Source: Psychrobacillus soli (GTDB lineage Bacteria; Bacillota; Bacilli; Bacillales_A; Planococcaceae). From it: DNA of 64,000 bases. The stretch is from positions 62,001 through 126,000 of the forward strand of contig NZ_VDGG01000001.1 of NCBI RefSeq assembly GCF_006861775.1. Direction: 5' to 3'. Every line of letters starts with the position of its first letter. Within the stretch, counting starts at the first letter, position 1. The position numbers and the translations under genes are program-made. This document shows positions 1,656 to 48,855 of this stretch, one piece after another. Below the pieces are notes generated by a model. That model was not told where the DNA came from. It made no database searches and was given only the letters and a program-made list of their open reading frames with translations.

Positions 1656-1672
1656 TTATTTCATCATGCCGA
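1656..1672. repeat. att-like core, degenerate copy of the groEL 3' end
   Basis: TTATTTCATCATGCCGA differs at two or so positions from the last bases of groEL on this strand (TTATTACATCATGCCGC). It follows integrase scraps and a hairpin, as at groEL. Confidence 0.5.
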
Positions 1673-1741
1673 CTGTTAGCTGAAGTTATTTCTTTATGTT
1701 TCCAGTATCGATTATATTAAACTATCTGTACATCTAATCAT

Positions 1742-3814
1742 CTATAACTTAAAATGTCTGACTAAATCATTTAGCTCTTCAGCTAATTTTGCTAGTTGAC
1801 CAGATCCTCCAGCCACTTCTTCCATAATACTGCTTATTTGTTGAGAAGATGCAGATGTTTGTTCAACACCGGCTGCGGATTCTTCCGAAACGGAAGCAAT
1901 TTCTTCAATTGCTCCATTCATCTCCTGTGCATTTGCTGCAATTTCAGTTAAGTTTTCAGCAATAGTTGTAATACTATAAACCATTTCTGTTACAGCTTCA
2001 CTAATTCCACGGAAAGTCTCGCCAGTGGATTCAACCTGTGCTTTACCTTTTTCCACTTCTTCATAGCCACCTTGTAACGATTCCGATACAAGACCAGATT
2101 CTTTTTGAATATTACCTACTATATCTGTTATATTCGTTACAGAATCCGATACTTGTTCAGCAAGTTTCCTTACTTCATCTGCTACTACAGCAAAACCTTT
2201 TCCATGTTCTCCAGCCCTTGCAGCTTCGATTGCAGCATTTAAAGCTAGAAGATTCGTTTGATTAGAAACGTCCTTAATCACGGTTACTAAATTGGATATT
2301 TCTTGTGATTGCTTGTCTAGCCCTTGAACTTTATGGACTGAGTCCCGCACTATTTTATCTATTTTGTCCATCTGAGCAATTGAATTCTTCATTAACTCAG
2401 ATCCATCTTTTGTCATGTTTAAAACTACTTTTGAATTTGTTTCGATACGGTAACCATTTTCATTTGCTTCTTGAACTTTTTCTGCAAAATTATTCATACC
2501 AAATGATAAATCACTCGCACTATTGGCTTGGGTTTCAGAACCAGACGCTAATTCCTGCATAGTAATTGCCACTTGTTCTGCTCCCATTTTCACTTCGTTT
2601 GCTGATTGAGTCAATTCTTCACTTTGACTACTTACTGTTTCAGAAACTGTATTGATTTGACTTACTATTTCTCGCAAGTTCCGATTCAATTGGTTTGTAG
2701 ATGTCACTAATTGACCTATTTCATCTTTAGATTTAGATTTTAATTCTTCCTTACTTAAATTACCTAAAGCTAGTTGCTCCATTACATTTGTAACATGCGG
2801 AATTTCTCTTAACATACGTTTTAACAGCAAGAATACTAAGATAATAAGGATGAGACAAGCAATACCAAAATATAAACTCATCATCAACGTGAATGTATTA
2901 AGACTGCTTAATGCTTCATCTTGTGGTATAGATGTTCCAACTGACCAATTGGTTGTAGGAACTGGTGAATACCCGATATATTCTAAACCCTCATTTACTT
3001 GCGTTAGTTCAAGTCCCTTTTCACCATCAACCATTTTCTTACCGACATTTCCTATCTCACCAGAAATTGATTGAAGTTTTTGCTCTAGAATCAACTCACT
3101 GTTTGGATGATATAGTATGGTTCCATCGTTGGAAAGTAAAAACGAGTATCCATTTTCACCCATCTTGTAAGATTGCATTAATTGCGGTAATTCATCTAAA
3201 AATATGTCTATCGCAACGATACCAACCGTATTTTCACCTTCTTTAATTGGTTTCATAGCACTTAAAATCATTTTCCCAAATACTTCATCCATATATGGCT
3301 CCGTAAAATATACGTTATCTTCCGCTATGGCTTGTTCGTACCAAGGTCTGCTTTTTATATCAAAGCTTGGATCCGATACTATATTATTACTTCCAACTAG
3401 AAAATTGGATTTATCACTGGCAATCCAAGCCATTGCAACAGCATCATCTATTTTAACAATCTCATCAAGTGATTTTAAAACCCCATCGTAATAAGCATTT
3501 GTCGTTGCTTCATCTCTTGATGCAGCTGTATTCAAGTATTTTAGTATCTCCTGGTTTGTTGCAATTTGCCTTACAATCGTTTCTTTAGCCGCAAACATAT
3601 TATTAACTTGATCAGCAATTGCCTCGCTTTTCGTCGATACATTTTCTTCTACACTTTGAACTAATATGGATTTCGTATAGGAGTTAATTAGAAACCCTGT
3701 AATTGAAAATACAATGATGATAGCTATAAAAAGTACAAAAGCTACTTTTGTTGAAATACTATTTCTTATCCAAGAAAACAAGTTTAACTTCGTTTCATTA
3801 TCTTTTTTACCCAT
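1742..3814 (-). CDS. Methyl-accepting chemotaxis protein with dCache sensor
   Basis: 690 aa, usual length for TlpA/McpB-type receptors. A short cytoplasmic N-terminus, TM1 at about 24-46, an extracytoplasmic dCache-like sensor to about 305, TM2 at about 308-332, HAMP at about 333-385, then the coiled-coil signalling domain. The conserved hairpin tip [18 protein letters not shown] lies near residue 530-550 and would bind CheA and CheW. It senses a small extracellular ligand (amino acids or organic acids are typical of dCache receptors; here unknown) and feeds the flagellar switch. GGAAGGAA precedes the ATG. It stands alone between two att-like cores and has no chemotaxis neighbours, so it looks like single-gene cargo. 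The final residues are not the CheR-tether pentapeptide. Confidence 0.93.
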
Positions 3815-4448
3815 TAATATATTCCTTCCTATCCTTGTAGCTATAACTAGTATCTTTTATAAGGCTTTGAGTAACACTTTCTTCATTATATTTTCGTTAA
3901 AAGTTTACGACAAAATCAATATAAACAGCTTGTATAGTCTCCAAAATCATACTTTGTTGTTCCTTCTCTAGTACACATAATAACTTAACCCTGGAATTCA
4001 TCTTTTAAAATTTTACAGCATCGTTACATTTTCCCCTTCCCCATAAACAAGAGATACTTACATAAATCACCTTGGACTTTGTTATCCTCAGTTGAAAGAT
4101 GATCAATATCTATAATTACGTTGAAATTAGGCATATCTCATCCATTTCTTCGGATAATCCAAGTTGTTTGAATCGATTCCAATGTTAGTGATGACTCATT
4201 CCATACATAAACTTATACTTTGTAGTAAATCTTCCTTATTAATTATAATTGATTTTACAAGTCTTAAGCATCATTAAAACATAGTACTTTAGGATCGTAT
4301 TTTAATAATTCTTGAAAAGAATACATCGAAAATACCAATTTCCCCTTAATTTAAATAGAAAATTAGTTAAATTTTTATAATTCACAATATGTTTTTTTCA
4401 TACTCGATTGCAATTCTAGAAAAGGAATAAACACTTAAAGGAACATTA
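3815..4448. other. Gene-free AT-rich stretch upstream of the chemoreceptor
   Basis: No open frame with a ribosome-binding site and no recognisable homology on either strand. I looked for a sigma-D (TAAA / GCCGATAT) motif upstream of the receptor gene and did not find a convincing one. Confidence 0.4.
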
Positions 4449-4454
4449 AAAGAA

Positions 4455-4497
4455 ACAAAAAAGGTTTCTCAAAAGTTCGGGAACTTATGAGAAACCT
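4455..4497. terminator. Hairpin, possibly an integrase 3'-end remnant
   Basis: AGGTTTCTCA and TGAGAAACCT form a strong stem around CGGGAA. On the plus strand the bases also match the 3' end of the integrase at 47.1 kb (TCTCAAAAGTTC against TCCCAAAAGTTT), so this may be a decayed integrase tail whose sequence doubles as a terminator. Confidence 0.5.
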
Positions 4498-4593
4498 CTA
4501 TTACTTATGTGTTTTTAAAATATAGCAATCATTTGGTTTCAAATTACTATTTTGATACATATAAAGCGTTTATTTAACAGACTTTTAAGTACC

Positions 4594-4608
4594 TGATTAC
4601 ATCACTGT
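4594..4608. repeat. Weak att-like core
   Basis: CTGATTACATCACTG shares GATTACATCA with the groEL-end core and follows the hairpin at 4455-4497. Too short to be sure. Confidence 0.2.
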
Positions 4609-4616
4609 AAAAAAAG

Positions 4617-4649
4617 GAGGCTGTCTCCATTTTCATTGGAGACAGCCTC
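4617..4649 (-). terminator. Terminator of the triple RidA gene
   Basis: Perfect 12-base stem GAGGCTGTCTCC/GGAGACAGCCTC with a T run when read on the minus strand, about 90 bases after the stop codon. Confidence 0.85.
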
Positions 4650-4737
4650 TTCTTATGAATAAGATATGCGATTTCGCATTCACCATCGACATTAACAAGT
4701 AACTTTGATAGTTCCTGTATCTACAAACAAATGCCTC

Positions 4738-6009
4738 TTATGCTTTTGGAGGAGTTCCTTCAGCATTTGATACAATTGCATCGATTTGGATTAAAGCATC
4801 TTGAGGTAAAGCTGATACGCCAACTGTTCTACGTGCAGGAACACCGCCTGGGAAGAATGTTTTGTAAGCTTCATCTACAGCATCAATATCCGCGATATTT
4901 TTAAGGAAGATATTCACTTTAACAACATCGTCCATAACGTGGTCGATACTTTCTACAATTGCCTTAATGTTTTTCAAGCACTGTTCAGCTTGCTCTTTTA
5001 CACCACCGGCTACCAATTCACCTGTTTTTGGATCTAAAGGTAATTGAGCTGAAAGGTTATTGTAATGAGAGAACGCTACAGTTTGTGTAGATAGAGAACT
5101 CTTTGGTGCATTTTCAGTGTTGTTTGCCCATATAACGATACCATGTCTGTCTTCAATAGCTTGTGGAGGTGTACCATCTCCGTGTGATACTACTGCTTCA
5201 ATTTGTACCAAAGCATCCATAGGTAAAGCTGAAGCTGCAACTACTGTTCGTGCAGGGACATAAGCTACGGCTCTAGCAATAGCTGAATCCGGGAAAAATG
5301 TTGAATAAACTTCATTTACAGCTTCAGTATCCGATAGGTTTTTAAGGAAGATATTAATTTTAACAATATCGTCAAAAGGAACGTCGATACTTTCTAAAAT
5401 TGCCTTGATATTTTTCAAACACTGTCCAGTCTGCTCTTTTACTCCGCCAGTTACCAATCTACCAGTTTTTGGATCGATAGGCAATTGAGCTGAGAGGTTA
5501 TTGTAATGAGAGAAAGACACGGTTTGTGTAGATAGTGGACTTATTGGTGCATTTGGCGTGTTATTTGTAAGTTTGATGAGGTCGCCTGCTTGCGGTGCGT
5601 TTGGAATTGTACCTTCGCCGTGTGAAACAAGTGCTTCAATTTGTACCAAAGCATCCATAGGTAAAGCTGCAACTGCAACTGTTGTTCTTGAAGGAACATA
5701 AGTTGGGAAGAAAGTTTTATAAACTTCGTCTACAGCGTCAACATCTTTAATATCCTTAACGAATACAGTGATTCTAACGATATCACTCATAACATGATCG
5801 ATGCTGTTTACAATTGCCTCGATATTTTTAAAGCATTGTTCTGCTTGCTCTTTTATACCTCCAGCTATCAATTTACCAGTTTTTGGTTCGATAGGTAATT
5901 GTGCTGAAAGATTATTGTAATGAGAGAATGCTACAGTTTGTGAATATAAACCGTTTCCGCTTGGAGCATTTTCCGTATTTTTTGCTGTTACTGCGTTATA
6001 GTTGCTCAT
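4738..6009 (-). CDS. Protein of three tandem RidA (YjgF/YER057c/UK114) domains
   Basis: 423 aa, about three times the normal ~125-aa RidA subunit. Domains span roughly 18-135, 157-285 and 303-420, each opening with VxFSHYNNLSAQLP and containing AGG(I/V)KEQ. RidA proteins hydrolyse reactive enamine/imine intermediates such as 2-aminoacrylate and act as homotrimers with active sites at subunit interfaces, so one chain could form a pseudo-trimer. The substrate-binding Arg is present in all three (VPSRTTV, VPARTVV, VPARRTV). The Glu of the QIEA motif is kept in domains 1 and 2 but is Asp in domain 3 (QIDA). Domain 2 has a ~10-residue insertion before YVPAR. No PLP enzyme neighbours it; it sits alone between att-like cores. 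The domain call is firm and the role inferred. Confidence 0.88.
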   Translation of the reverse strand: MSNYNAVTAKNTENAPSGNGLYSQTVAFSHYNNLSAQLPIEPKTGKLIAGGIKEQAEQCFKNIEAIVNSIDHVMSDIVRITVFVKDIKDVDAVDEVYKTFFPTYVPSRTTVAVAALPMDALVQIEALVSHGEGTIPNAPQAGDLIKLTNNTPNAPISPLSTQTVSFSHYNNLSAQLPIDPKTGRLVTGGVKEQTGQCLKNIKAILESIDVPFDDIVKINIFLKNLSDTEAVNEVYSTFFPDSAIARAVAYVPARTVVAASALPMDALVQIEAVVSHGDGTPPQAIEDRHGIVIWANNTENAPKSSLSTQTVAFSHYNNLSAQLPLDPKTGELVAGGVKEQAEQCLKNIKAIVESIDHVMDDVVKVNIFLKNIADIDAVDEAYKTFFPGGVPARRTVGVSALPQDALIQIDAIVSNAEGTPPKA

Positions 6010-6165
6010 GATACGATTTCCCTTCTTGATAAAAATTTTCTAACCTAAGTATGCACCGAAAAACACGGTCTTAACCGCCCAGAATGCACTACAAAATTAT
6101 AGCAGGATTTGTTCATTTCGTCTAACGTTTTGTAAGTAATGAACAAAAAATAATAAAATAAAAAA

Positions 6166-6207
6166 ACTTCCCACAAGTCCATTGAACTTGTGAGAAGCTT
6201 CTTTTTT
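6166..6207 (-). terminator. Hairpin terminator beside the att core at 6221
   Basis: AACTTCCCACAAGT pairs with ACTTGTGAGAAGCTT; the minus strand ends in a T run. It also aligns loosely with the integrase 3' end (TCCCAAAAG...GAGAAGCCT) near groEL. Confidence 0.7.
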
Positions 6208-6220
6208 ATATGGTAATGGA

Positions 6221-6238
6221 TTATTACATCATGCCGCC
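6221..6238. repeat. att-like core identical to the groEL 3' end
   Basis: TTATTACATCATGCCGCC is identical to the last 15 coding bases of groEL plus three bases beyond its stop codon on this strand. To its right the sequence diverges at once into ...AAGGTAAAAGTTTGTTAAATC, resembling the bases right of the core at 15581 (AAGGTGAGAGTGTGTTATATC), as expected for left ends of related islands. Confidence 0.65.
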
Positions 6239-6384
6239 TATAAGGTAAAAGTTTGTTAAATCAGCGCATTGGATATTGTTAACTACAACATCTTTAATAT
6301 TAATTTGCCGTTATTATGAGATTGCATTAACAAAATTTTAACATCTTTTAACCTTAATAAAATGAACTAATTACCAATTAATGA

Positions 6385-7205
6385 TTAAATATACTTTGCT
6401 AACGTTTTATAAGGTTGCAGAACGATCGTATCATAGATGCACTTATCCTGATTAATCGATTTGACTTGCCATTCCTTTAATAAGCTTAACTCCAAAGGAT
6501 AGTTGAACAAGGACTTCAAACCGTTTCCGTAACGTACGATTATTTTACAATCTGGATGGACTTTAGATTTTAATTCCTCTATAATCTCCTGCTTCTCTGG
6601 CACAAGCGATGCAATGTATATATGGGTAGCTGTTTTTAGAAATTCAGGGTGTCTCAAGTGACTGTCCGAATAATGAAGGATTCCATGTAAGCCCAGAAAC
6701 TGCGCTAACTCTTTCCCGTAGTGAACGGCTTCACTGTCAATATCCGTGCAAACTACTTCCGCACTAGTTTCCTTGGCAATAGTAAAAGCCGTTAAAGGAT
6801 AAGCTCCGGCGCCTATAAACCAAACTTTAGATGTTCCGTCAATTTGAGCATAACTCCTTTCTTCGTTAACAGATGCAGATAAAAGGAAAGATACAGGTCC
6901 ATATCCAATTCTTCCGTATATACGTAAAGGGCTCTCATTTTTTCGACCATGCATAATGCTACAGAGGATGTTTCTCTTAACCTCTCTGCGCTTTGCTTGA
7001 CATCTTCACGCTCCCCCCACTGTTTCCAAAGTTGCTCATTTTCCTCACAAACTATAAATTCACAAAGGCTATCCAGTTTTGCACCTAATAGTTCTAATCC
7101 TTCCGGAGCATTATTGGCCGTTGTCATCAACTGCTTAAGCTCATTCTCAAACGAGTTCAATAAATCCAGCAATTCCACATAGCTTACGATGGACAATCCT
7201 TTCAT
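6385..7205 (-). pseudogene. Nicotianamine synthase-like (CntL-type) gene, frameshifted
   Basis: Two overlapping frames together make a ~273-aa protein, the length of staphylococcal CntL. The N-terminal part (7205 to about 6945) ends RETSSVALCMVEK. The C-terminal part (about 6945-6385) carries a SAM-dependent methyltransferase-like fold with VWFIGAGAYPLTAF and VCTDIDSEAV, typical of nicotianamine synthase-like enzymes, which transfer aminobutyrate from SAM. The break falls in a run of six A bases at about 6942-6947; one extra A gives VEKNESPLRIYGRIGYGP and restores the protein. This could be a real mutation, phase variation, programmed -1 slippage or a sequencing error. It lies downstream of a Cnt/Opp-type ABC importer on the same strand. 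The start is uncertain: GGAGG sits very close to ATG 7205; TTG 7214 or 7199 are alternatives. Confidence 0.65.
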
Positions 7206-7214
7206 CTCCTCCAA

Positions 7215-7556: not shown

Positions 7557-8528
7557 TTATGCGAAATGACAAGCGACAAAATGATTCGCTTCCACTTCTC
7601 TAAATTCAGGTACTTCTATGCGACACATATCAGTAGCAATCGGACAACGTGTATGGAATTTACAACCTTTCGGAGGATCCGCTGGATTTGGTATATCCCC
7701 TTTGATAATAATTCGCTCGCGTTTTAACGTCGGATCTGGAACTGGGACAGCAGAAAGTAATGCCTTTGTATAAGGATGAAGTGGGTTACCGTACAGTTGA
7801 TCACGACTGCCTAATTCCATCATTGTCCCAAGGTAAAGAACACCAATTTTGGAACAAAGATGCTCCACTACACTTAAATCATGGGAAATAAATAAAAATG
7901 TAATATCTCGTTCTTTTTGCAAATCGCTAAATAGATTAATAATTTGGGCTTGGATCGAAACGTCCAATGCTGATACAGGCTCGTCTGCAACAATAAAGTC
8001 TGGATTTAAGATAATCGCCCGTGCAATTCCAATTCGCTGTCTTTGCCCTCCGCTAAATTCGTGAGGGTAGCGATCAATCTGATAAGGAGCTAGACCACAG
8101 ATGTCTAAAACTTCTAATACTCTTTCTCTTATTTCACTTTTATCTACTAAACCGTGGTCGATCAAAGCTTCTCCAATTGCATCCCCAATTCTAATTCTAG
8201 GGTTTAATGAGCTATATGGATCTTGAAATATGAATTGCAATTTTGGTCGTAAGTTTCTCATATCTTTCTTTGAAAGCTTATGTATATTTTGTCCTTTATA
8301 TAAAACTTCTCCATCTGTAATAGAAGAAAGGCGTAAAATACTTTTTCCAATTGTACTTTTTCCACTTCCTGATTCTCCAACTAAGCCAAAAGTTTCTCCC
8401 TTTTCAATCGTAAAACTTACTCCATCAACAGCTTTCACAACTTCCGGATTACGTCTGAATAGATTACTAGAATCACCATAATATTTTTTTAGATTCTTCA
8501 CTTCTAGTAAAGGCAAAGCTTTACTCAT
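7557..8528 (-). CDS. Oligopeptide/nickel-type ABC importer ATP-binding subunit (OppF-like)
   Basis: 323 aa. Walker A GESGSGKST at about 51-59, Q-loop FIFQDPYSSLNP, signature FSGGQRQR, Walker B FIVADEPVSALD, and the Opp/Dpp-type C-terminal extension with the CKFHTRCPIATDMC cysteine cluster. It pairs with the OppD-like ATPase encoded just upstream; their genes overlap by four bases (ATGA), implying translational coupling. Together they drive import through the two permeases. The family transports oligopeptides, dipeptides, nickel complexes or opine metallophores; the ATPase alone does not tell which. Confidence 0.93.
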   Translation of the reverse strand: MSKALPLLEVKNLKKYYGDSSNLFRRNPEVVKAVDGVSFTIEKGETFGLVGESGSGKSTIGKSILRLSSITDGEVLYKGQNIHKLSKKDMRNLRPKLQFIFQDPYSSLNPRIRIGDAIGEALIDHGLVDKSEIRERVLEVLDICGLAPYQIDRYPHEFSGGQRQRIGIARAIILNPDFIVADEPVSALDVSIQAQIINLFSDLQKERDITFLFISHDLSVVEHLCSKIGVLYLGTMMELGSRDQLYGNPLHPYTKALLSAVPVPDPTLKRERIIIKGDIPNPADPPKGCKFHTRCPIATDMCRIEVPEFREVEANHFVACHFA

Positions 8529-9511
8529 ACACTCACCTCTTCCTCATACAGCCAGCAGGCAACATCATGACTATCTCGTATTTGCTTCATTGGTGGTTGT
8601 TTAGTTGTACAAATGCTCATACAATGTTCACAGCGCTCACTAAAATAACAAGATGGCTGCAAATCTATTAAGTTTGGTACTTGGCCAGGGATTGTATAGA
8701 GTTTCTCTCTTCTTTGATTGATCACTGGCTTAGCTGCGAGCAGCCCTTTCGTATATGGATGCTTCGGATTTTTAAATAATTCCACAACCGGACCTTGTTC
8801 AATTATTTTGCCAGCATACATCACAATCACATAGTCAGCAACCTCCGCGACAACACCGAGATCATGCGTGATGAGCAGCATTGACATGTTTCTTTCTTCT
8901 TTTAAATTCCTTAGTAGATCAAGAATTTGCGCTTGAATTGTAACATCTAATGCAGTCGTAGGCTCATCCGCAATTAATAACCGTGGATTACAAGAAATCG
9001 CAATCGCAATCATAATTCGTTGTAGCATTCCACCACTTAGCTGATGTGGATAGGAAGAAAAGATCTCTTCACCGCGACCAATTCCAACGAGATTGATTAG
9101 TTCTAATCCTCTTTGCTTCGCTTCTTTCTTGGATAATAATTCATGCTCTATAATCGATTCCGTAATCTGTTCACCAATTGTTAAAACGGGATTGAGCGAT
9201 GACATCGGTTCTTGGAAAATCATCGCGAAATCTTTTCCACGTAATCGGCGCAAATCACCTTTTTTCATTTTTAATAAATCTTGCCCTTCGAATAATACTT
9301 CACCATTACTTACTTGTCCTGAAGAAGGATCAATTAATCCCATAACAGACATAGCTGTAGCGCTTTTTCCACATCCTGATTCTCCGACAAGACAAACCGT
9401 TTGGCCTTCCCTAATTTCTAAGCTGACATTATTCACCGCGTTCACTTTTCCACCATCTGAATAAAACTGAGTGAGTAATTGATTTATTTGCAGTATAGGC
9501 TCCTTTGCCAT
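8525..9511 (-). CDS. Oligopeptide/nickel-type ABC importer ATP-binding subunit (OppD-like)
   Basis: 328 aa. Walker A GESGCGKSA, Q-loop MIFQEPMSSLNP, signature LSGGMLQR, Walker B LLIADEPTTALD and a C-terminal cysteine-rich extension (CYFSERCEHCMSIC). Start ATG 9511 lies five bases beyond the stop of the OppC-like permease gene, with GGAGGTAACC in front. Second gene from last of the five-gene importer operon. Confidence 0.93.
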   Translation of the reverse strand: MAKEPILQINQLLTQFYSDGGKVNAVNNVSLEIREGQTVCLVGESGCGKSATAMSVMGLIDPSSGQVSNGEVLFEGQDLLKMKKGDLRRLRGKDFAMIFQEPMSSLNPVLTIGEQITESIIEHELLSKKEAKQRGLELINLVGIGRGEEIFSSYPHQLSGGMLQRIMIAIAISCNPRLLIADEPTTALDVTIQAQILDLLRNLKEERNMSMLLITHDLGVVAEVADYVIVMYAGKIIEQGPVVELFKNPKHPYTKGLLAAKPVINQRREKLYTIPGQVPNLIDLQPSCYFSERCEHCMSICTTKQPPMKQIRDSHDVACWLYEEEVSV

Positions 9512-9516
9512 GACGG

Positions 9517-10491
9517 TTACCTCCTCTTCATATTTGGATCTATCGCATCACGCAATCCATCACCAAGTAAATTGATACTAATAACAGTAAGGAAAATAGC
9601 AATTCCCGGCGGTATCCATAGCCATGGTCGTTTTTGAAAATCGATTAGTGAGTTAGCTGCATTTATCATATTTCCCCACGAAGCAGTTGGAGGGACAACA
9701 CCTAACCCAAAATAACTTAGGACAGATTCACTCAAAATTGCACCGCCTATACTCAAAGTTCCAGAAACTATTAATAATGGGACAATATTTGGCAATAAAT
9801 GATTTAATAGTTTTCTATGATCCCGTAATCCTAAAGCATCTGTAGCCTGGATAAACTGTCTTTCTCGCAAACTAAGAACTTGACTACGTACAAGTCTAGC
9901 AAGTCCTGGCCAGCCGACCAAACTTAGCATTAACATAACAATGTAAAGGCGCTGTTCTGTCGGAACTTTCCACTCTGACATGACTGCTGCCATTATAAAA
10001 AGCAAAGGCAGGCTAGGTAATGTCATTAATATATCAGCGATCCTCATGACGATTTGATCGATAATCCCTTTATAATAGCCTGCTAAAATCCCTAACAATG
10101 CTCCAAATGTAACAGATAGTACCATTGCACCAACACCGACTGTTAACGATATTCTGCCGGCAAACATGAGCCTCGTTAATACATCACGTCCCAATTTATC
10201 AGTTCCTAACCAGTGTTCGCTACTCGGAGGTAGATTAATTTGCGTTGGATTAACTCCTTCTGTTGCATAGGGAGAAAAGAAAGGGCCAATAAGTGAAAAC
10301 AGAAAAATAAATAGGAGAAAACCTAGTCCAACAAGCGCTATTTTCTTCTTTAAAAAGCGCTGCAATACTTGTCCCCATAAAGAAGACTTTTTCCTCTTCT
10401 CAGCTTTACTCTTACTAGCAATCGTAATTGGAGGATTCTCCACCTTTTTCAACTCCTTACTATATGTAGTGCATACATCTATGTCTTTCAT
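9517..10491 (-). CDS. ABC importer permease (OppC-like)
   Basis: 324 aa with a cytoplasmic N-terminal tail of about 45 residues, the OppC-N segment with one membrane helix (about 48-72), the periplasmic-side GTDKLGRDVLTRL motif of OppC/DppC proteins, and five more membrane helices with the EAA-like loop (ATDALGL ... HLLPNIVPLL) that contacts the ATPases. Forms a heterodimer with the OppB-like permease encoded 10 bases upstream. Confidence 0.93.
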   Translation of the reverse strand: MKDIDVCTTYSKELKKVENPPITIASKSKAEKRKKSSLWGQVLQRFLKKKIALVGLGFLLFIFLFSLIGPFFSPYATEGVNPTQINLPPSSEHWLGTDKLGRDVLTRLMFAGRISLTVGVGAMVLSVTFGALLGILAGYYKGIIDQIVMRIADILMTLPSLPLLFIMAAVMSEWKVPTEQRLYIVMLMLSLVGWPGLARLVRSQVLSLRERQFIQATDALGLRDHRKLLNHLLPNIVPLLIVSGTLSIGGAILSESVLSYFGLGVVPPTASWGNMINAANSLIDFQKRPWLWIPPGIAIFLTVISINLLGDGLRDAIDPNMKRR

Positions 10492-10501
10492 GGTTACTTT
10501 C

Positions 10502-11458
10502 TTATTTCAATCGAACTCTTGGATCAGCTACACCATATAATAAGTCAGCTAATAAGTTACTAATGACTGTCAATAACGCAATAAACATGGTGAAGCCCAT
10601 TAAGAGTGGATAATCGCGCACAGTGAATGCTTGCATATAGATCGCACCAATTCCTGGCCAATTAAAGATTTGTTCCGTAATTATCGCACCACTGAACAAA
10701 GCTGGTAATTCAAAGGCAAAAAGAGTAATCGCTGGAAGAAGTGCATTTCTAAGCGCATGCTTATAAATAACAACTCTTTCCTTCAATCCTTTTGCTCTTG
10801 CTGTTCGTACGAAATCTTGTTTAATAACTTCTAACATATTTGTTCTAAAATAACGTGTTAACCCACCAATCCCAAGCATTGTTAGCACAAGGACAGGCAA
10901 AATCATATGTTCTGCAACATCTTTCACATAGTCCCATCCAGTCAAATTACTCCCAGTCGTAATCATTCCTCCAGCTGGGAACCAACCGAGATCAACAGCA
11001 AGAAACTTAATCAATATCAACCCGAGGAAAAAGGATGGGGTCGCCATCGCTGCAAAAACAATAATCGTAATAAATGAATCAAAAAAAGAATATTGTTTAG
11101 TTGCAGAAACAACACCAATAATTACAGCAATTAACCATGTGAGTATAAGTGAGGCTAACGCAACAAAAAAGGAACTCCAAATATAATTTCCAAGAACCTC
11201 CGTAACAGGTCTTTGAAATTGTAAAGAATAGCCCAGATCTCCTTGAAGGAGATTTCCAATCCAAATAAAATATCTTTCTATATCAGGTTGATCAAAGCCA
11301 TAAAGAGCATATAACTCTGCTTTCCGTTCTGTCGTCAAATTGGGATCTGAGTCGACGAAATTCCCAGGAACTAAAGAATATAAGAAGAAAATGAGCATAG
11401 ATGCTCCAATCAGCGTTGGAATTAAGTATAAAAGTCGTTTTAACACGTAGTTTCTCAA
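10502..11458 (-). CDS. ABC importer permease (OppB-like)
   Basis: 318 aa when started at TTG 11458, which has GGAGGGA at good spacing; a longer frame reaches upstream to 11509 but would add residues atypical for the family. Six membrane helices and the EAA loop (ARAKGLKERVVIYKHALRNALLP) typical of OppB/DppB. An inverted repeat at 11515-11553 separates it from the binding-protein gene, so expression of the membrane part is probably lower than that of the lipoprotein. Confidence 0.9.
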   Translation of the reverse strand: MRNYVLKRLLYLIPTLIGASMLIFFLYSLVPGNFVDSDPNLTTERKAELYALYGFDQPDIERYFIWIGNLLQGDLGYSLQFQRPVTEVLGNYIWSSFFVALASLILTWLIAVIIGVVSATKQYSFFDSFITIIVFAAMATPSFFLGLILIKFLAVDLGWFPAGGMITTGSNLTGWDYVKDVAEHMILPVLVLTMLGIGGLTRYFRTNMLEVIKQDFVRTARAKGLKERVVIYKHALRNALLPAITLFAFELPALFSGAIITEQIFNWPGIGAIYMQAFTVRDYPLLMGFTMFIALLTVISNLLADLLYGVADPRVRLK

Positions 11459-11514
11459 GCTTCCATCCCTCCAAACATATGTAACTGTTTGCACTAATAC
11501 TTCTAGCAATCAAT

Positions 11515-11553
11515 TAAGGCGTATCCAAGACCATGACATCTGGATACGCCTTA
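11515..11553 (-). terminator. Intra-operon hairpin between binding protein and permease
   Basis: TAAGGCGTATCCA and TGGATACGCCTTA form a perfect 13-base stem without a long T run. Such elements after binding-protein genes often act as partial terminators or protect the upstream message. Confidence 0.75.
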
Positions 11554-11597
11554 CGCACGCTTTTTATTTACTCATGATGTCTGTTATTCTATGAATC

Positions 11598-13343
11598 TTA
11601 CTTATTTACATCTACTATTTTTAAATCTTTCAAGCTTGATGCAATCCCACGATAACCATTCGGTTCAAATCCATCCACGCGTGCATTTGTTCCACTTAAT
11701 ACTTTTTTATAGTCCATTAAAATCACTGGTGGATTCTCATCTAGTGCCTTATACAAATTGTGGAATGCATTTGTGCGTTCTTCAAGATCATTCGTCGCAA
11801 TTGTCGCCTCGATTAAAGCGTCAATTTCTTCATTTCCAAAACCTTTTATAATGGAAGATGCACTTTTCGAATGGAAATTCTCGATACCATTATATGGATC
11901 AGTCAACATCGTCGTAGAGAAGGAAGCAAGATCATGATCGCCATTTCCTACACGTGAAAGTAATGCATTAAAGTCCATTTGTTCAACTTGAAGATCAATC
12001 CCAATCGCTTTATAATTTTCTTTCGCAATTGGAATTAATGTATCTCCAAGTCCACCTGCAGATGTGAAATAATAAACAGTCAGTTTCTTACCATCTTTTT
12101 CACGGATGCCATCTGCTCCTTCAACCCAGCCTGCTTCTTCTAATAATTGTTTAGCTTTTTCTGGATCATATTTTGTACTACCAATTTCATCTGTATAAGC
12201 CCATGATGTCGGTGATACTGGGATATTCGCTACTTCTGCATATCCTTGATAATGAGTACTAATAATTGTTTGTCGGTCTAACCCAAGTACGAATGCTTGT
12301 CGTACTTTCGGATCTTTAAATACTTCTTTTTCATGATTGAATGTCATATATCCATATGCAGAAGATGTGTATACATTAATATCAGCAAATCCTAGTGTTT
12401 GTAAAAATTCAAAGTTATCTTGGTTTGCACTTAGTGCACTATAGTCTAGCTCACCTGTTTGGAAAAATTGTAGGGAATCGCCTTCTGTTGTTTTATAAAT
12501 AAATTGCGCAACTTCTGGTTTACCATCATAGTAATACTCATTTGCTTCAAAACGAATTTCTTGACCTGGTAAATACTCCACAAAACGGAATGGTCCAGCA
12601 CCAACTGGTTTTTGATGTAAAGCATTTAAATAATCCAATTGACCTTTTTGATAATCTTTACCATAGTAGTCTTTTTTCAAGACTTGCCCACCAATTAAAC
12701 GAAGAGAACGTGCATTTACTACTTCGGTTGTCACTTCAATTGTTTTCTCGTTAATGACATTGATACCAGAAATAGTGTCTGCATCGCCATTTTTATAATC
12801 TAATCCACCTACAATTTTTGCTTCTGTAATATCAGTCCCGCCACCATAGCTTGGATCATGTAGTAATGTTAGAGTAAACGCTACATCCGCAGCAGTAAGT
12901 GGTGTACCATCATCGAAAAGCAAATCATCTTGTAAATTGTAAGTATAAGTTAATCCATCCTCCGAAATATCCCAAGACTTTGCAAGACCCGGAACAGCTT
13001 CACCAGCTTCATTGATCTCAACTAAGGGTGGGAACATAACAGCTTGGACGTTTCCATCATAACCACTTGTATTAAAATAAGGAGTAAATACTCCACCTGG
13101 TTCTTGTAATCCAACAACAACTGTATCTCCTCGATTGATTGCAAGCGCTGGAGATGCAGCAGGTTCTGTTGCTTCATGTCTTGCATCTTCTACAACAATG
13201 GATGTTTCAGTTTCTGTTTGAGTTTCTGTATTTGTTGCTTGTTCTGATTCATTGCCAGTACCTGAATCTTCATCACTACAAGCGGCAATCAGAAAACTTA
13301 CTAATAAAATCGTTATGTAAATCGTCATGCTTTTAAGTTTCAT
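11598..13343 (-). CDS. Extracellular solute-binding lipoprotein, family 5 (OppA/CntA-like)
   Basis: About 581 aa from ATG 13343, which has AAAAGGAG nine bases in front; an ATG at 13352 overlaps that site. Residues 1-21 form a lipoprotein signal with lipobox LIAAC (Cys 22), followed by a Ser/Thr/Glu-rich linker and the SBP_bac_5 fold (FTPYFNTSGYDGNVQAVM, RLIGGQVLKKD, RQAFVLGLDRQTI). It captures the substrate outside the membrane for the OppBC-like channel. Encoded first in the importer operon, behind an M20 amidohydrolase gene. With the nicotianamine synthase-like gene on the same island, an opine-metallophore substrate (Cnt type) is possible; a peptide substrate fits the amidohydrolase. Sequence alone does not decide. 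Confidence 0.9.
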   Translation of the reverse strand: MKLKSMTIYITILLVSFLIAACSDEDSGTGNESEQATNTETQTETETSIVVEDARHEATEPAASPALAINRGDTVVVGLQEPGGVFTPYFNTSGYDGNVQAVMFPPLVEINEAGEAVPGLAKSWDISEDGLTYTYNLQDDLLFDDGTPLTAADVAFTLTLLHDPSYGGGTDITEAKIVGGLDYKNGDADTISGINVINEKTIEVTTEVVNARSLRLIGGQVLKKDYYGKDYQKGQLDYLNALHQKPVGAGPFRFVEYLPGQEIRFEANEYYYDGKPEVAQFIYKTTEGDSLQFFQTGELDYSALSANQDNFEFLQTLGFADINVYTSSAYGYMTFNHEKEVFKDPKVRQAFVLGLDRQTIISTHYQGYAEVANIPVSPTSWAYTDEIGSTKYDPEKAKQLLEEAGWVEGADGIREKDGKKLTVYYFTSAGGLGDTLIPIAKENYKAIGIDLQVEQMDFNALLSRVGNGDHDLASFSTTMLTDPYNGIENFHSKSASSIIKGFGNEEIDALIEATIATNDLEERTNAFHNLYKALDENPPVILMDYKKVLSGTNARVDGFEPNGYRGIASSLKDLKIVDVNK

Positions 13344-13516
13344 CGTTTCCATCTCCTTTTCATATATGTATGGTTCTAATTATTCCGATAGTTGAATTTA
13401 CTAATAGCTCCCTTCTATTTACCGAATTCAGTTTAGATCCATTTTTTTATTTAAAATGCTAAGCATCTTAATACAATTATTCATATTTATTAACTCAGTT
13501 TAATAAGTTTTACGTA

Positions 13517-18423: not shown

Positions 18424-18557
18424 GTGTAGCACTCGAACAAATCATGGATAACTCGTCCATTCAGATGTTCAAATCACCAAGAATGTCTATCTCCCCGTTA
18501 CAAAAGAAATGAAAAAAGAAGCTTCCCAAAAGTTTTCACAACTCATGAGAAGCCTCA
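18424..18557 (+). pseudogene. 3' remnant of a tyrosine integrase
   Basis: GTGTAGCACTCGAACAA onward matches 46999-47131 base by base with scattered changes, covering the residues VALEQIMD...VYLHVTKEMKKEASQ that include the catalytic Tyr region. It begins abruptly with no upstream integrase sequence, so it is a truncated copy. The homology continues through the intergenic bases and into the groEL-end copy at 18631. Confidence 0.85.
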
Positions 18558-18629
18558 GGTTTAATCCTCTGGATTAGTATTTCACTTTCATCTTACATAC
18601 AACCCCATACATATCAAGGGTTGAAGCGG

Positions 18630-18750
18630 CTTATTACATCATGCCGCCCATTCCGCTGCCTGCTGGTTCTGGAATGTCTGCTACTACTGCTTCTGTCGTT
18701 AAGAACAATGCAGCTACAGATGCAGCGTTTTGAAGTGCTGAACGAGTTAC
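18630..18750 (-). pseudogene. Duplicated 3' end of groEL (attachment-site relic)
   Basis: Bases 18631-18750 match 47218-47361, the last ~46 codons of groEL plus its stop, except for a 24-base in-frame deletion in the glycine/methionine tail (copy encodes [12 protein letters not shown]) and one substitution. Identity ends sharply after GAACGAGTTAC. Together with the adjacent integrase tail this is a ~330-base duplication of the groEL/island junction. It marks the left border of the largest island and shows that groEL's 3' coding end, not only its last bases, was duplicated. Confidence 0.9.
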
Positions 18751-37549: not shown

Positions 37550-38764
37550 ATGAAGGGACATTATTATAAACGAGATTGTACTTGTGAAATTGAAAACTGC
37601 GGATGCACTTGGACATTTGTAATTGATATTAGGAAAGATCCACTCACAAGGGAAAGACGTCAAAAATCTCAAGGAAGTTTTAATACTAGACAAGATGCAG
37701 AAATTGCTGCAGCAGATTTGCTGAATAAAATAAACAAAGGAACCTATATAGAAGAATCGAATATATTATTTGAAGACTTTACCAATGACTGGTTGACTTA
37801 CTATATCCATAGCACCGCCCCCAAACCTGGAACAATTCGTTTAAGAAAATATAGTATCAATAAATTCTTACTATACTTTTCTAATGTGAAACTAAAAGAT
37901 ATTACCGAAGAAATGTATCAAGCAATATTAGATGATTTAAAAGAAAAAGGTTATGCTTTAAATACAATCGAAGGTTATCATACTACTGCAAAATTAATTT
38001 TTAAACTAGCCACAGATAAGAGAATGATTATACTCAATCCCACAATAAATGCTTATATCAAGCCTGATGAAGAGGTCATTATTGAAGACGATGAGGAAGA
38101 GTTGCCATTATACTTTGAAAAAGATGAACTCGCATTATTCTTGAAAACAGTTCGGAAATACGGACTCTATATGGATTACTTAATCTTCTTAATTTTATCA
38201 TATACCGGAATACGAGTAGGTGAATTGGTAGCCCTTAAATGGAGAAATATCGATTTCAAAAAGAAAACTATCAGTATTACAAAGACTTACTATAATCCTG
38301 ATAATAATACTAAAAAATATGTATTAGTTCCTCCTAAAACAAAGAAATCCAGACGCAAAATTGTAGTAGACCATGAAATTATAGGTAAATTAATTAAACA
38401 TAAAGCAGAACAAGAAAAACCCATTATGCATTATGGTAACTCATATAACAATGGTGATTATGTATTTGCCAATATAAATCGTCATCCCGGATTTCCAATT
38501 TTATTTAAATTGGTGGAGACTAGAATGACTAGATTATTAGGAAAAACTGAGTTCAATTCTGATATCACGCCACACTCTCTTCGCCATACCCATACATCAC
38601 TTCTCGCTGAAGCAGGAGTAGGTCTTGAAGAAATTATGGATCAATTAGGTCATCAAGATGATGACGTGACAAGAAAAGTATATCTTCATGTAACAACTGA
38701 CATGAAAACAGAAGCTGCCGATAAATTTAGTGAATTAATGAAAAAAACTCGCATAGAAAATTAA
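37550..38764 (+). CDS. Tyrosine integrase, Tn916/ICEBs1-like
   Basis: 404 aa, apparently intact. N-terminal arm-binding domain with MKGHYYKRDCTCEIENCGC (paired cysteines), core-binding SAM-like domain at about 75-175, and the catalytic domain with Arg in YTGIRVGELVALKW, Lys in TKKSRRK, HSLRHTHTS, LGHQD and the Tyr in RKVYLHV. Integrates and excises DNA between att sites. It is a close relative of the broken integrase next to groEL but has its own terminator, and no clear groEL-type core follows it. It may be the enzyme still able to move part of this region. Confidence 0.93.
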   Translation: MKGHYYKRDCTCEIENCGCTWTFVIDIRKDPLTRERRQKSQGSFNTRQDAEIAAADLLNKINKGTYIEESNILFEDFTNDWLTYYIHSTAPKPGTIRLRKYSINKFLLYFSNVKLKDITEEMYQAILDDLKEKGYALNTIEGYHTTAKLIFKLATDKRMIILNPTINAYIKPDEEVIIEDDEEELPLYFEKDELALFLKTVRKYGLYMDYLIFLILSYTGIRVGELVALKWRNIDFKKKTISITKTYYNPDNNTKKYVLVPPKTKKSRRKIVVDHEIIGKLIKHKAEQEKPIMHYGNSYNNGDYVFANINRHPGFPILFKLVETRMTRLLGKTEFNSDITPHSLRHTHTSLLAEAGVGLEEIMDQLGHQDDDVTRKVYLHVTTDMKTEAADKFSELMKKTRIEN

Positions 38765-46078: not shown

Positions 46079-47136
46079 ATGAAAGGACATTTCTACAAAA
46101 GAGGTTGTTCGTGCAAGAAGAAAAGATGTACTTGTGGTTCCAAATGGGCCTTTACAATCGACATTGGAATAGATCCGATTACTGGTAAAAGGAAGCAAAA
46201 GATGTGAAGCCCGGAACGATTCGAGTCCGGATTTATGAAATCAATAAGTTGTTGCCCTACTTTTCTCAGCTGAAATTGAAGGACATCACAAGTAAGAGAT
46301 ACCAGGATGCATTGAACGATTTAAAGGACAGAGGATATTCTGATAGTACAAGGGAGGGAATACACCTAACTGGAAAAATGATTTTTCGGAAAGCATTAGA
46401 GCTGGAGCTAATCAAGAAAGACCCTACTGAGTTTGCCTATCTAAAAAAGGATAAAAAAACAATCGAGCAATTGGAGGAAGAAGAAATACCAAAGTACTTG
46501 GAAAAGGAAGAGCTTGCAATATTATTAAAAACCGCTAAGAAGCAGGGGTTGGAGTTAGACTACTTAATATTCCTTATCCTCTCATACACAGGAATTCGTG
46601 TTGGGGAATTAGTAGCGCTCAAGTGGAAAGATATTGATTTCGTGAATCAGACAATCAGCTTTACCAAAACATATTGCAATCCCAATAATAATACAGTTAA
46701 GTTTCTATTGGTGACACCAAAAACGAAAAAATCCAGAAGAAAAGTCGTTGTCGATGAGGTTGTGATAGAGGCCTTAAAGGATCACAAAGAAAAACAAGAA
46801 AAAATCAGCGAACAGTTAGGAGATGCTTATAATAATCAGCACTTTATCTTTGCAAAAACTGAACGACAGCCTGGATATCCAATCGTTATCAAAATGGTAC
46901 AACTTAGAATGGCAAGACTGCTGAAACGGGCAAATTTAAATCCTGAATTAACCCCACACTCTTTACGACATACCCATACATCACTTCTTGTATAGGCGGG
47001 TGTAGCACTTGAACAAATTATGGATAGACTTGGTCATTCAGATGATCAAATCACCAAAAACGTCTATCTCCACGTTACAAAAGAAATGAAAAAAGAAGCT
47101 TCCCAAAAGTTTGCACAACTCATGAGAAGCCTCTAA
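46079..47136 (+). pseudogene. Disrupted tyrosine integrase next to groEL
   Basis: Starts MKGHFYKRGCSCKKKRCTCG and runs to KRKQKM, then a stop. About 60 residues present in the intact relative at 37550 are missing before KPGTIRVRIYEINK. The core and catalytic domains follow (YTGIRVGELVALKW, TKKSRRK, HSLRHTHTSLL), then an in-frame TAG at 46993 replaces the usual Glu, after which AGVALEQIMDRLGHSD and YLHVTKEMKKE complete the protein. So the gene has an internal deletion and a nonsense codon. It points at, and ends 85 bases from, the groEL stop codon, placing the enzyme at the attachment site it presumably used. Confidence 0.9.
47095..47133 (-). terminator. Hairpin in the integrase 3' end serving as groEL terminator
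   Basis: On the minus strand GGCTTCTC and GGGAAGC pair and CTTTTTTC follows. It lies about 90 bases past the groEL stop, so the integrase tail may supply groEL's terminator. Confidence 0.55.

Positions 47137-47216: not shown

Positions 47217-48855
<1,639 letters not shown>

Follow-up and report, generated by a model that had tools for sequence, protein, structure and literature searches.

Proteins of the RidA family normally form homotrimers in which the active site lies between subunits. Proteins with three such domains in one chain have been named 3x-RidA by Niehaus et al. (2015; PMC4433059), with EF_0115 of Enterococcus faecalis as the example, and the available text of that paper states that they 'are presumably covalently linked trimer units'. 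The same EF_0115 also appears in tables of two other papers, as far as the excerpts at hand extend. Concatenation of related units has been described as well for the cyanuric acid hydrolase AtzD, in which, according to the accessible part of PMC3758960, the joining of YjgF monomers lets the central barrel serve catalysis. Our limited literature search for '3x-RidA' returned PMC4433059 alone and no dedicated study of the class, and it yielded no prior account of the loss of Glu120, of the F-S-H-Y-N motif or of the genomic setting of these genes. The 3x-RidA class and the idea of a covalent trimer are already known, and the altered active-site residues and the place beside a mobile-DNA hot spot reported here appear to be new details.

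The gene analyzed here lies in a 64,000-nucleotide stretch of Psychrobacillus soli DNA, the whole of which is termed the window, and codes for a protein that is real, conserved and of a type named before, with changes in its sites. Taken as a whole, we consider it fairly probable that this protein consists of three RidA domains derived from one old triplication, that these form a trimer in one chain and that the trimer carries out imine or enamine hydrolysis with altered sites. Such a protein unites in one natural chain what is otherwise a trimeric enzyme, so that its sites can be broken one by one, as is impossible in a homotrimer, and the question of which residues of which RidA subunit do the work becomes directly testable.

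The gene and its signals

The 3x-RidA reading frame runs uninterrupted from an ATG at 6009 down to 4738 and encodes 423 amino acids, and the opposite (plus) strand over the same interval is full of stops. The Ribonuc_L-PSP profile (PF01042) matches at three places in this one frame (E 9e-80), and the whole protein scores 301.6 bits against TIGR00004 (Rid family detoxifying hydrolase), the cut-off of which is 106.25, so that it belongs to the RidA subfamily by this profile and, as a tandem fusion of three RidA domains in one chain, to the 3x-RidA class. The initial annotation had read the gene as three diverged and fused RidA copies, and the three PF01042 stretches bear this out, with mutual identities of 60, 65 and 70% (75, 80 and 87 of 124 positions); domain 1 shares 31-42% identity with six single RidAs. 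Seven pairwise comparisons give dN/dS values of 0.06-0.17 for the whole gene, which is therefore under purifying selection, and of 0.03-0.21 for the individual domains. The 3x-RidA of genome G016 (locus L021, 7078-8349, minus strand) has an apparent ATT start, with no ATG, GTG or TTG at the usual place.

The gene stands alone and has its own terminator (Table 1). Terminator-like hairpins also precede it, and promoter-like sites, one of which is listed in the table, are no commoner here than in shuffled sequence (10 versus a mean of 12.9). A short conserved leader (ACCGGTTTTTTCGGTGC or variants) is found upstream of many Bacillaceae 3x-RidA copies, for instance at 6010-6080 of the window and in loci L040, L044 and L065. 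A structured RNA leader was considered and rejected, since a search of positions 4200-6500 in E-value mode returned no Rfam family at its gathering score. In a similar vein, the CntL-like and ABC-transporter genes were discarded as operon partners because a terminator-like hairpin stands between them and 3x-RidA; CntL-like DNA is present in two of the 19 genomes of the genus, one of which is without 3x-RidA. The CntL-like gene (nicotianamine synthase family; 6385-7214, minus strand) is split over two overlapping frames and adjoins an oligopeptide-type ABC transporter operon (7557-13352), and its relative in genome G012 has 93% DNA identity and a different length inside the alignment.

Table 1. 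Features of the 3x-RidA locus and of the att cores, in window coordinates.
Feature	Position	Strand	Remark
3x-RidA gene, 423 aa	4738..6009	-	ORF scan and domain profiles
RidA domain 1 (aa 5-140)	5590..5997	-	Y22, R79, D94, R108, Q123, E125
RidA domain 2 (aa 143-290)	5140..5583	-	S160, K217, N232, R254, Q269, E271
RidA domain 3 (aa 291-421)	4747..5139	-	S307, K364, D379, R393, Q408, D410
Loop with 8-residue insertion of domain 2 (aa 241-250, DSAIARAVAY)	5260..5289	-	just before R254
Intrinsic terminator of the 3x-RidA gene	4617..4649	-	strong; 13-pair stem, T run
Promoter-like site with TG before -10	6096..6124	-	consensus match only
Block common to the window and genome G017 of the genus (other neighbourhood)	4608..6262	-	gene, leader, terminator and att core; 3x-RidA sole gene
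Att core copy upstream of 3x-RidA	6221..6238	-	far side like island right end, near side leads to 3x-RidA
Weak att core copy, beyond MCP gene	1656..1673	-	2 mismatches
Second exact att core	18631..18648	-	after ~100 bp duplicated groEL 3' end (18631-18750)
Att core at true 3' end of groEL	47218..47235	-	attB side

Active-site residues and fold

Residues were mapped by alignment to those named for TdcF in the available part of PMC5979572. Residue counts refer to 70 proteins, namely that of the window, 66 loci and three plasmid records, which are not independent, so that the counts are not frequencies of events; from the 82 loci at hand (80 genomic and two viral), seven without a single frame of at least 400 codons bearing three F-[ST]-H-Y motifs were dropped, as were nine whose start the script had mis-set. 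For comparison, 30 single RidAs were used, namely L002 and the single-domain matches that scored best in 61 genomes. An earlier set of 14 had been chosen by a pattern demanding the Arg and the Glu, hence the recount on 30 unfiltered proteins, which bears out the contrast first seen on the 14.

The substrate-binding arginine (Arg105) corresponds to R108, R254 and R393 in the window protein and is kept in 64, 63 and 69 of the 70 first, second and third domains (196 of 210 copies, being missing in 14). The position of Glu120, on the other hand, is occupied by Gln in each domain of the window protein (Q123, Q269 and Q408) and in 70 of 70 proteins for every domain (210 of 210 copies), and that of Gly31 by Ala in 99% of 3x-RidA domains. 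The Tyr17 position reads Y/S/S across the window's three domains, with Tyr in 58, 0 and 6 of the 70, and the Asn88 position reads D/N/D, with Asn in 7, 67 and 4 of the 70; the archetypal Tyr17/Asn88/Glu120 set is not found in 3x-RidA. All five residues (Tyr17, Gly31, Asn88, Arg105 and Glu120) are kept in 30 of 30 single RidAs, for which no filter on those residues had been applied, and the loss of Glu120 and the change of Gly31 to Ala therefore imply that the 3x-RidA pocket is not the standard RidA pocket. According to the accessible text of PMC4433059, replacing the arginine of Salmonella RidA by Ala nearly abolished activity, and Y17A and E120A had little effect; given how mild the latter effects are, the loss of these residues lowers the case for an 'archetypal RidA' and not that for a 3x-RidA. 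In some 3x-RidAs (L151 and L156, from genomes G411 and G213, and L087, L097 and L070) the domain 2 arginine is replaced by Leu, Val or Met, and one site can therefore change alone.

The insertion that the initial annotation placed in the second domain was found as described: it comprises eight residues, DSAIARAVAY standing where domains 1 and 3 have two residues, and the ten commonest variants, all of that loop, cover 79 of 83 rows. An E-to-D change had also been claimed for the third domain. The change is real (D410, 17 residues after R393), but it does not fall on Glu120; it falls on the position of an inter-subunit salt bridge, formed in Arabidopsis RidA by Glu182 (17 residues after Arg165) with Lys136, according to the available part of PMC4960622. 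The third domain has Asp there in 68 of the 70 proteins, with Glu in the two E. faecalis rows, and Photobacterium and Vibrio have Asp in all three domains, as does one of the 30 single RidAs in its only domain. The two salt-bridge positions hold Lys or Arg in 70, 69 and 70 of the 70 (domains 1, 2 and 3) and Glu or Asp in 70 of 70 for each domain, and the E-to-D substitution is mild and varies within the family. The notion of three non-equivalent sites, which had been derived from that substitution and the insertion, is supported, though not by the substitution, the consistent differences being those at Tyr17 and Asn88 and the insert.

Judging from the aligned proteins, the hardest constraint of the 3x-RidA family is the F-S-H-Y-N motif. 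The pattern V-x-F-S-H-Y-N...A-Q-L-P, together with the Gln, is 99-100% (rounded) identical across the three domains of the 70 proteins, and in the 30 single RidAs the H-Y-N place is mostly filled by hydrophobic residues after its first position. The constant loss of Glu120 and this invariant strand mean that 3x-RidA is not equivalent to three ordinary RidAs, and they provide exact residues for mutation. With F-S-H-Y-N as the hardest constraint, a moved or altered function is therefore possible, and one may envisage a closed single-chain trimer that has lost imine deaminase activity and in which the conserved work has moved to the second strand of each domain, the three F-S-H-Y-N motifs forming a new threefold site. 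Both observations on the motif favor such a shift, as do the changes at the Tyr17, Gly31, Asn88 and Glu120 positions, and AtzD serves as the precedent, its site having shifted to the central barrel (available text of PMC3758960). The persistence of Arg105 in most domain copies argues against it, and we regard a relocation of this kind as unlikely.

The case for a trimer within one chain comes from structure prediction. An AlphaFold2 model built on 37 close rows (model 1) reached a pTM of 0.47 and a mean pLDDT of 56.5 and was left out of the fold searches, and a second one built on 31 more diverse rows (model 2), the alignment of which included two viral-contig single RidAs, aligned by MAFFT to domain 1, reached a pTM of 0.74 and a mean pLDDT of 64.4, with linkers 131-169 and 276-315 and loop 241-250 all at pLDDT below 50. 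The best VIA-align matches of model 2 are chorismatases, aligned over residues 29-414 (Z 20.7, rmsd 3.4 A, 266 residues, 14% identity), and the remaining fold matches listed are single Rid-family chains (Z 15.6-17.8). Since the chorismatase match spans all three domains of one chain, closure is supported, and 3x-RidA is likely, as far as the modeling goes, to be a closed single-chain pseudo-trimer. The single-chain trimer put forward in the initial annotation, and the fold modeling it had proposed as a check, thus find support in model 2; model 1 reached only its lower pTM, and the disagreement of the two predictions, with their low-confidence linkers, is a real weakness for trimer closure.

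Those linkers and the pTM of model 1 would be in keeping with a chain that does not close on itself and instead combines with further chains, or with single RidA, to form larger complexes, in which interface residues would be equally conserved. The whole-chain pTM of model 2 and the alignment of its residues 29-414 with a single-chain arrangement of solved structure point the other way, and we judge such an assembly to be quite improbable. Equally doubtful is an accessory cargo gene whose Rid product has a binding, regulatory or chaperone-like role in place of catalysis. The changed active-site residues might be invoked for this reading, but it has to face purifying selection in all three domains and a substrate arginine in 196 of 210 copies.

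Distribution, origin and the groEL end

The 3x-RidA gene is patchy in distribution. Full-length relatives are found in seven of 19 genomes of the genus, 23 of 200 of the family and nine of 398 of the phylum (the window's own genome being counted in each), and further carriers belong to Flavobacterium, Vibrio, Photobacterium, an Enterobacteriaceae bacterium, a Desulfovibrionaceae bin and Enterococcus. Other triple RidA proteins of ~420 aa, a search for which had been suggested at the outset, do exist, in the class named in the accessible part of PMC4433059 and in relatives from several phyla. In a pattern search of the genome contig collection, 542 of 556 matches encode a relative, and the best 80 of these 542 loci, with identities of 83-97%, were taken on; in the phylum sample, all matches with E <= 1e-80 are at least 79% identical.

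In a quick tree of the 70 proteins, for which record titles supplied the ranks, with bins among the records, the genus label changes 28 times, the minimum possible being 19 and the shuffled mean 43. Bacteroidota, Pseudomonadota (L113) and Thermodesulfobacteriota rows lie among those of Bacillota in the same tree, and two Vibrionaceae rows lie apart. This topology suggests transfer of 3x-RidA between lineages. A quick tree built from the 57 domains of 19 chosen proteins and the two single RidAs of the window's genome groups the domains by position, with all 19 second domains together (SH-aLRT 99), all 19 third domains (90) and 17 of the 19 first domains (96), the two Vibrionaceae first domains being at the base; the grouping would fit one old triplication before the spread. 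The two single RidAs of the window's genome are open, and therefore the 3x form is not needed there for basic function. A broken piece of another Rid gene, with one in-frame stop, is also found in this genome (G000:C22:46461-46643; L006).

In the neighbourhoods of 83 loci (the window and 82 others, with flanks of up to 4 kb), the commonest gene cluster apart from 3x-RidA itself is GroEL, with eight loci, and no known imine-producer gene is a constant neighbour. The groEL gene lies on the same contig and strand as 3x-RidA in five of the seven carriers of the genus, and in five loci, from Sporosarcina (three), Cytobacillus and Ornithinibacillus, 3x-RidA lies 0.3-1.0 kb behind the groEL end. In genome G009, an MCP gene stands behind groEL without 3x-RidA, which is located on another contig.

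In the window, the last 18 bases of groEL constitute an att core that is found exactly at 6221, 18631 and 47218 and with two mismatches at 1656 (0.02 expected at up to three mismatches). The initial annotation had described 3x-RidA as the only gene between two att-like cores. Att cores do lie nearby, but, in terms of this core, the interval 1656-6221 contains two genes, 3x-RidA and an MCP chemoreceptor (1742-3814). The description holds if a looser motif, AACTTGTGAGAAGC, is meant, which has seven matches at up to two mismatches (versus 0.45 expected), a pair at 4464/4482, one at 6185 and a further pair next to each of the cores at 18631 and 47218 (18521/18540 and 47098/47117): 3x-RidA alone stands between two of these copies, both of which lie inside terminator-like hairpins. 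The immediate flanks (3815-4737 and 6010-6900) have no common direct or inverted repeat of at least 11 bp, and att cores as direct repeats of these flanks were accordingly rejected, as was a tRNA attachment site, since the window contains no tRNA gene.

In genome G017, too, 3x-RidA is preceded by this core and by the right-end sequence, even though groEL is there on another contig. Arm-like motifs of the same att type are found just before 3x-RidA in L040, L042, L044 and L063 and just after it in L045 and L086/L120, and most other 3x-RidA loci are without such att-type motifs. On L120, an IMG/VR contig, 3x-RidA adjoins a reading frame that we read by eye as an integrase.

At the groEL 3' end, the window has two islands one after the other (6221-47235). 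A long tyrosine-recombinase-like reading frame is found at 37550-38764 and a shortened one, with a stop seen by eye, at 46204-46995, and DNA like the 3' end of the latter occurs near 18430-18750. The window's genome also encodes a second GroEL (G000:C35:25002-26576), which shares 67% identity with the first; each of the 18 relatives yields a single GroEL at E 1e-100. We infer that tyrosine-integrase islands (18.6-47.2 kb and 6.2-18.6 kb) inserted successively at the groEL end and pushed away a 3x-RidA gene that would once have been close behind groEL. The gene may have been moved by integrases or may merely be sited at their target.

Proposed function and relation to known systems

In the explanation that we favor, one old triplication would have given rise to three RidA domains, as the domain tree fits, and these are predicted to adopt the customary RidA trimer within a single chain. 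With the arginine that would hold the substrate carboxylate present in each domain, hydrolysis of imines or enamines, such as 2-aminoacrylate, is most likely retained; on the strength of its family, the protein is probably an imine deaminase. Its sites would be altered by Gln in place of Glu120 everywhere, by Tyr17 being limited to domain 1 and Asn88 to domain 2, and by the insertion before the domain 2 arginine, and the linked chain would let the three sites differ in preference or rate. The gene appears to spread between species on its own and, in Psychrobacillus, seems to reside mostly (five of seven carriers) downstream of groEL, where integrase islands would insert. A bolder scenario, to which we give little credence, is that the joining of domains freed the RidA working site and that His, Asn and Tyr form a pseudo-threefold site in or close to the barrel, making 3x-RidA a new enzyme or sensor, carried between phyla as a one-gene cassette that often settles at hot spots of integrases, the groEL end among them.

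As a single-chain RidA trimer with altered sites, the window protein can be set against four known systems. Chorismatases (PDB 5a3k, 4bps and 5ag3) provide the best whole-chain fold match (Z 20.5-20.7, 261-267 residues aligned, on a model with a mean pLDDT of 64), but they are only 13-15% identical and have other chemistry, the family matches of the window protein being PF01042 and TIGR00004. The cyanuric acid hydrolase AtzD (Toblerone fold) likewise has three concatenated YjgF-like units per chain, but the accessible part of PMC3758960 puts its catalysis in the central barrel, where Ser-Lys pairs and a metal site are present; AtzD is absent among the fold matches listed, which excludes nothing, and no Toblerone-fold amidase family is among the domain-profile matches of the window protein. 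The single-domain imine deaminases RidA/YjgF/UK114/TdcF share with 3x-RidA the domain family and the substrate-binding arginine, but are homotrimers of separate chains in which Tyr17, Gly31, Asn88 and Glu120, all changed in 3x-RidA, are constant. Finally, an E. faecalis 'RidA family protein' from the plasmid collection, which may be EF_0115 itself, is 71% identical to the window protein over its full length, and the 3x-RidA of the EF_0115 type itself has, like the window protein, three tandem RidA domains, with no tested feature separating the two.
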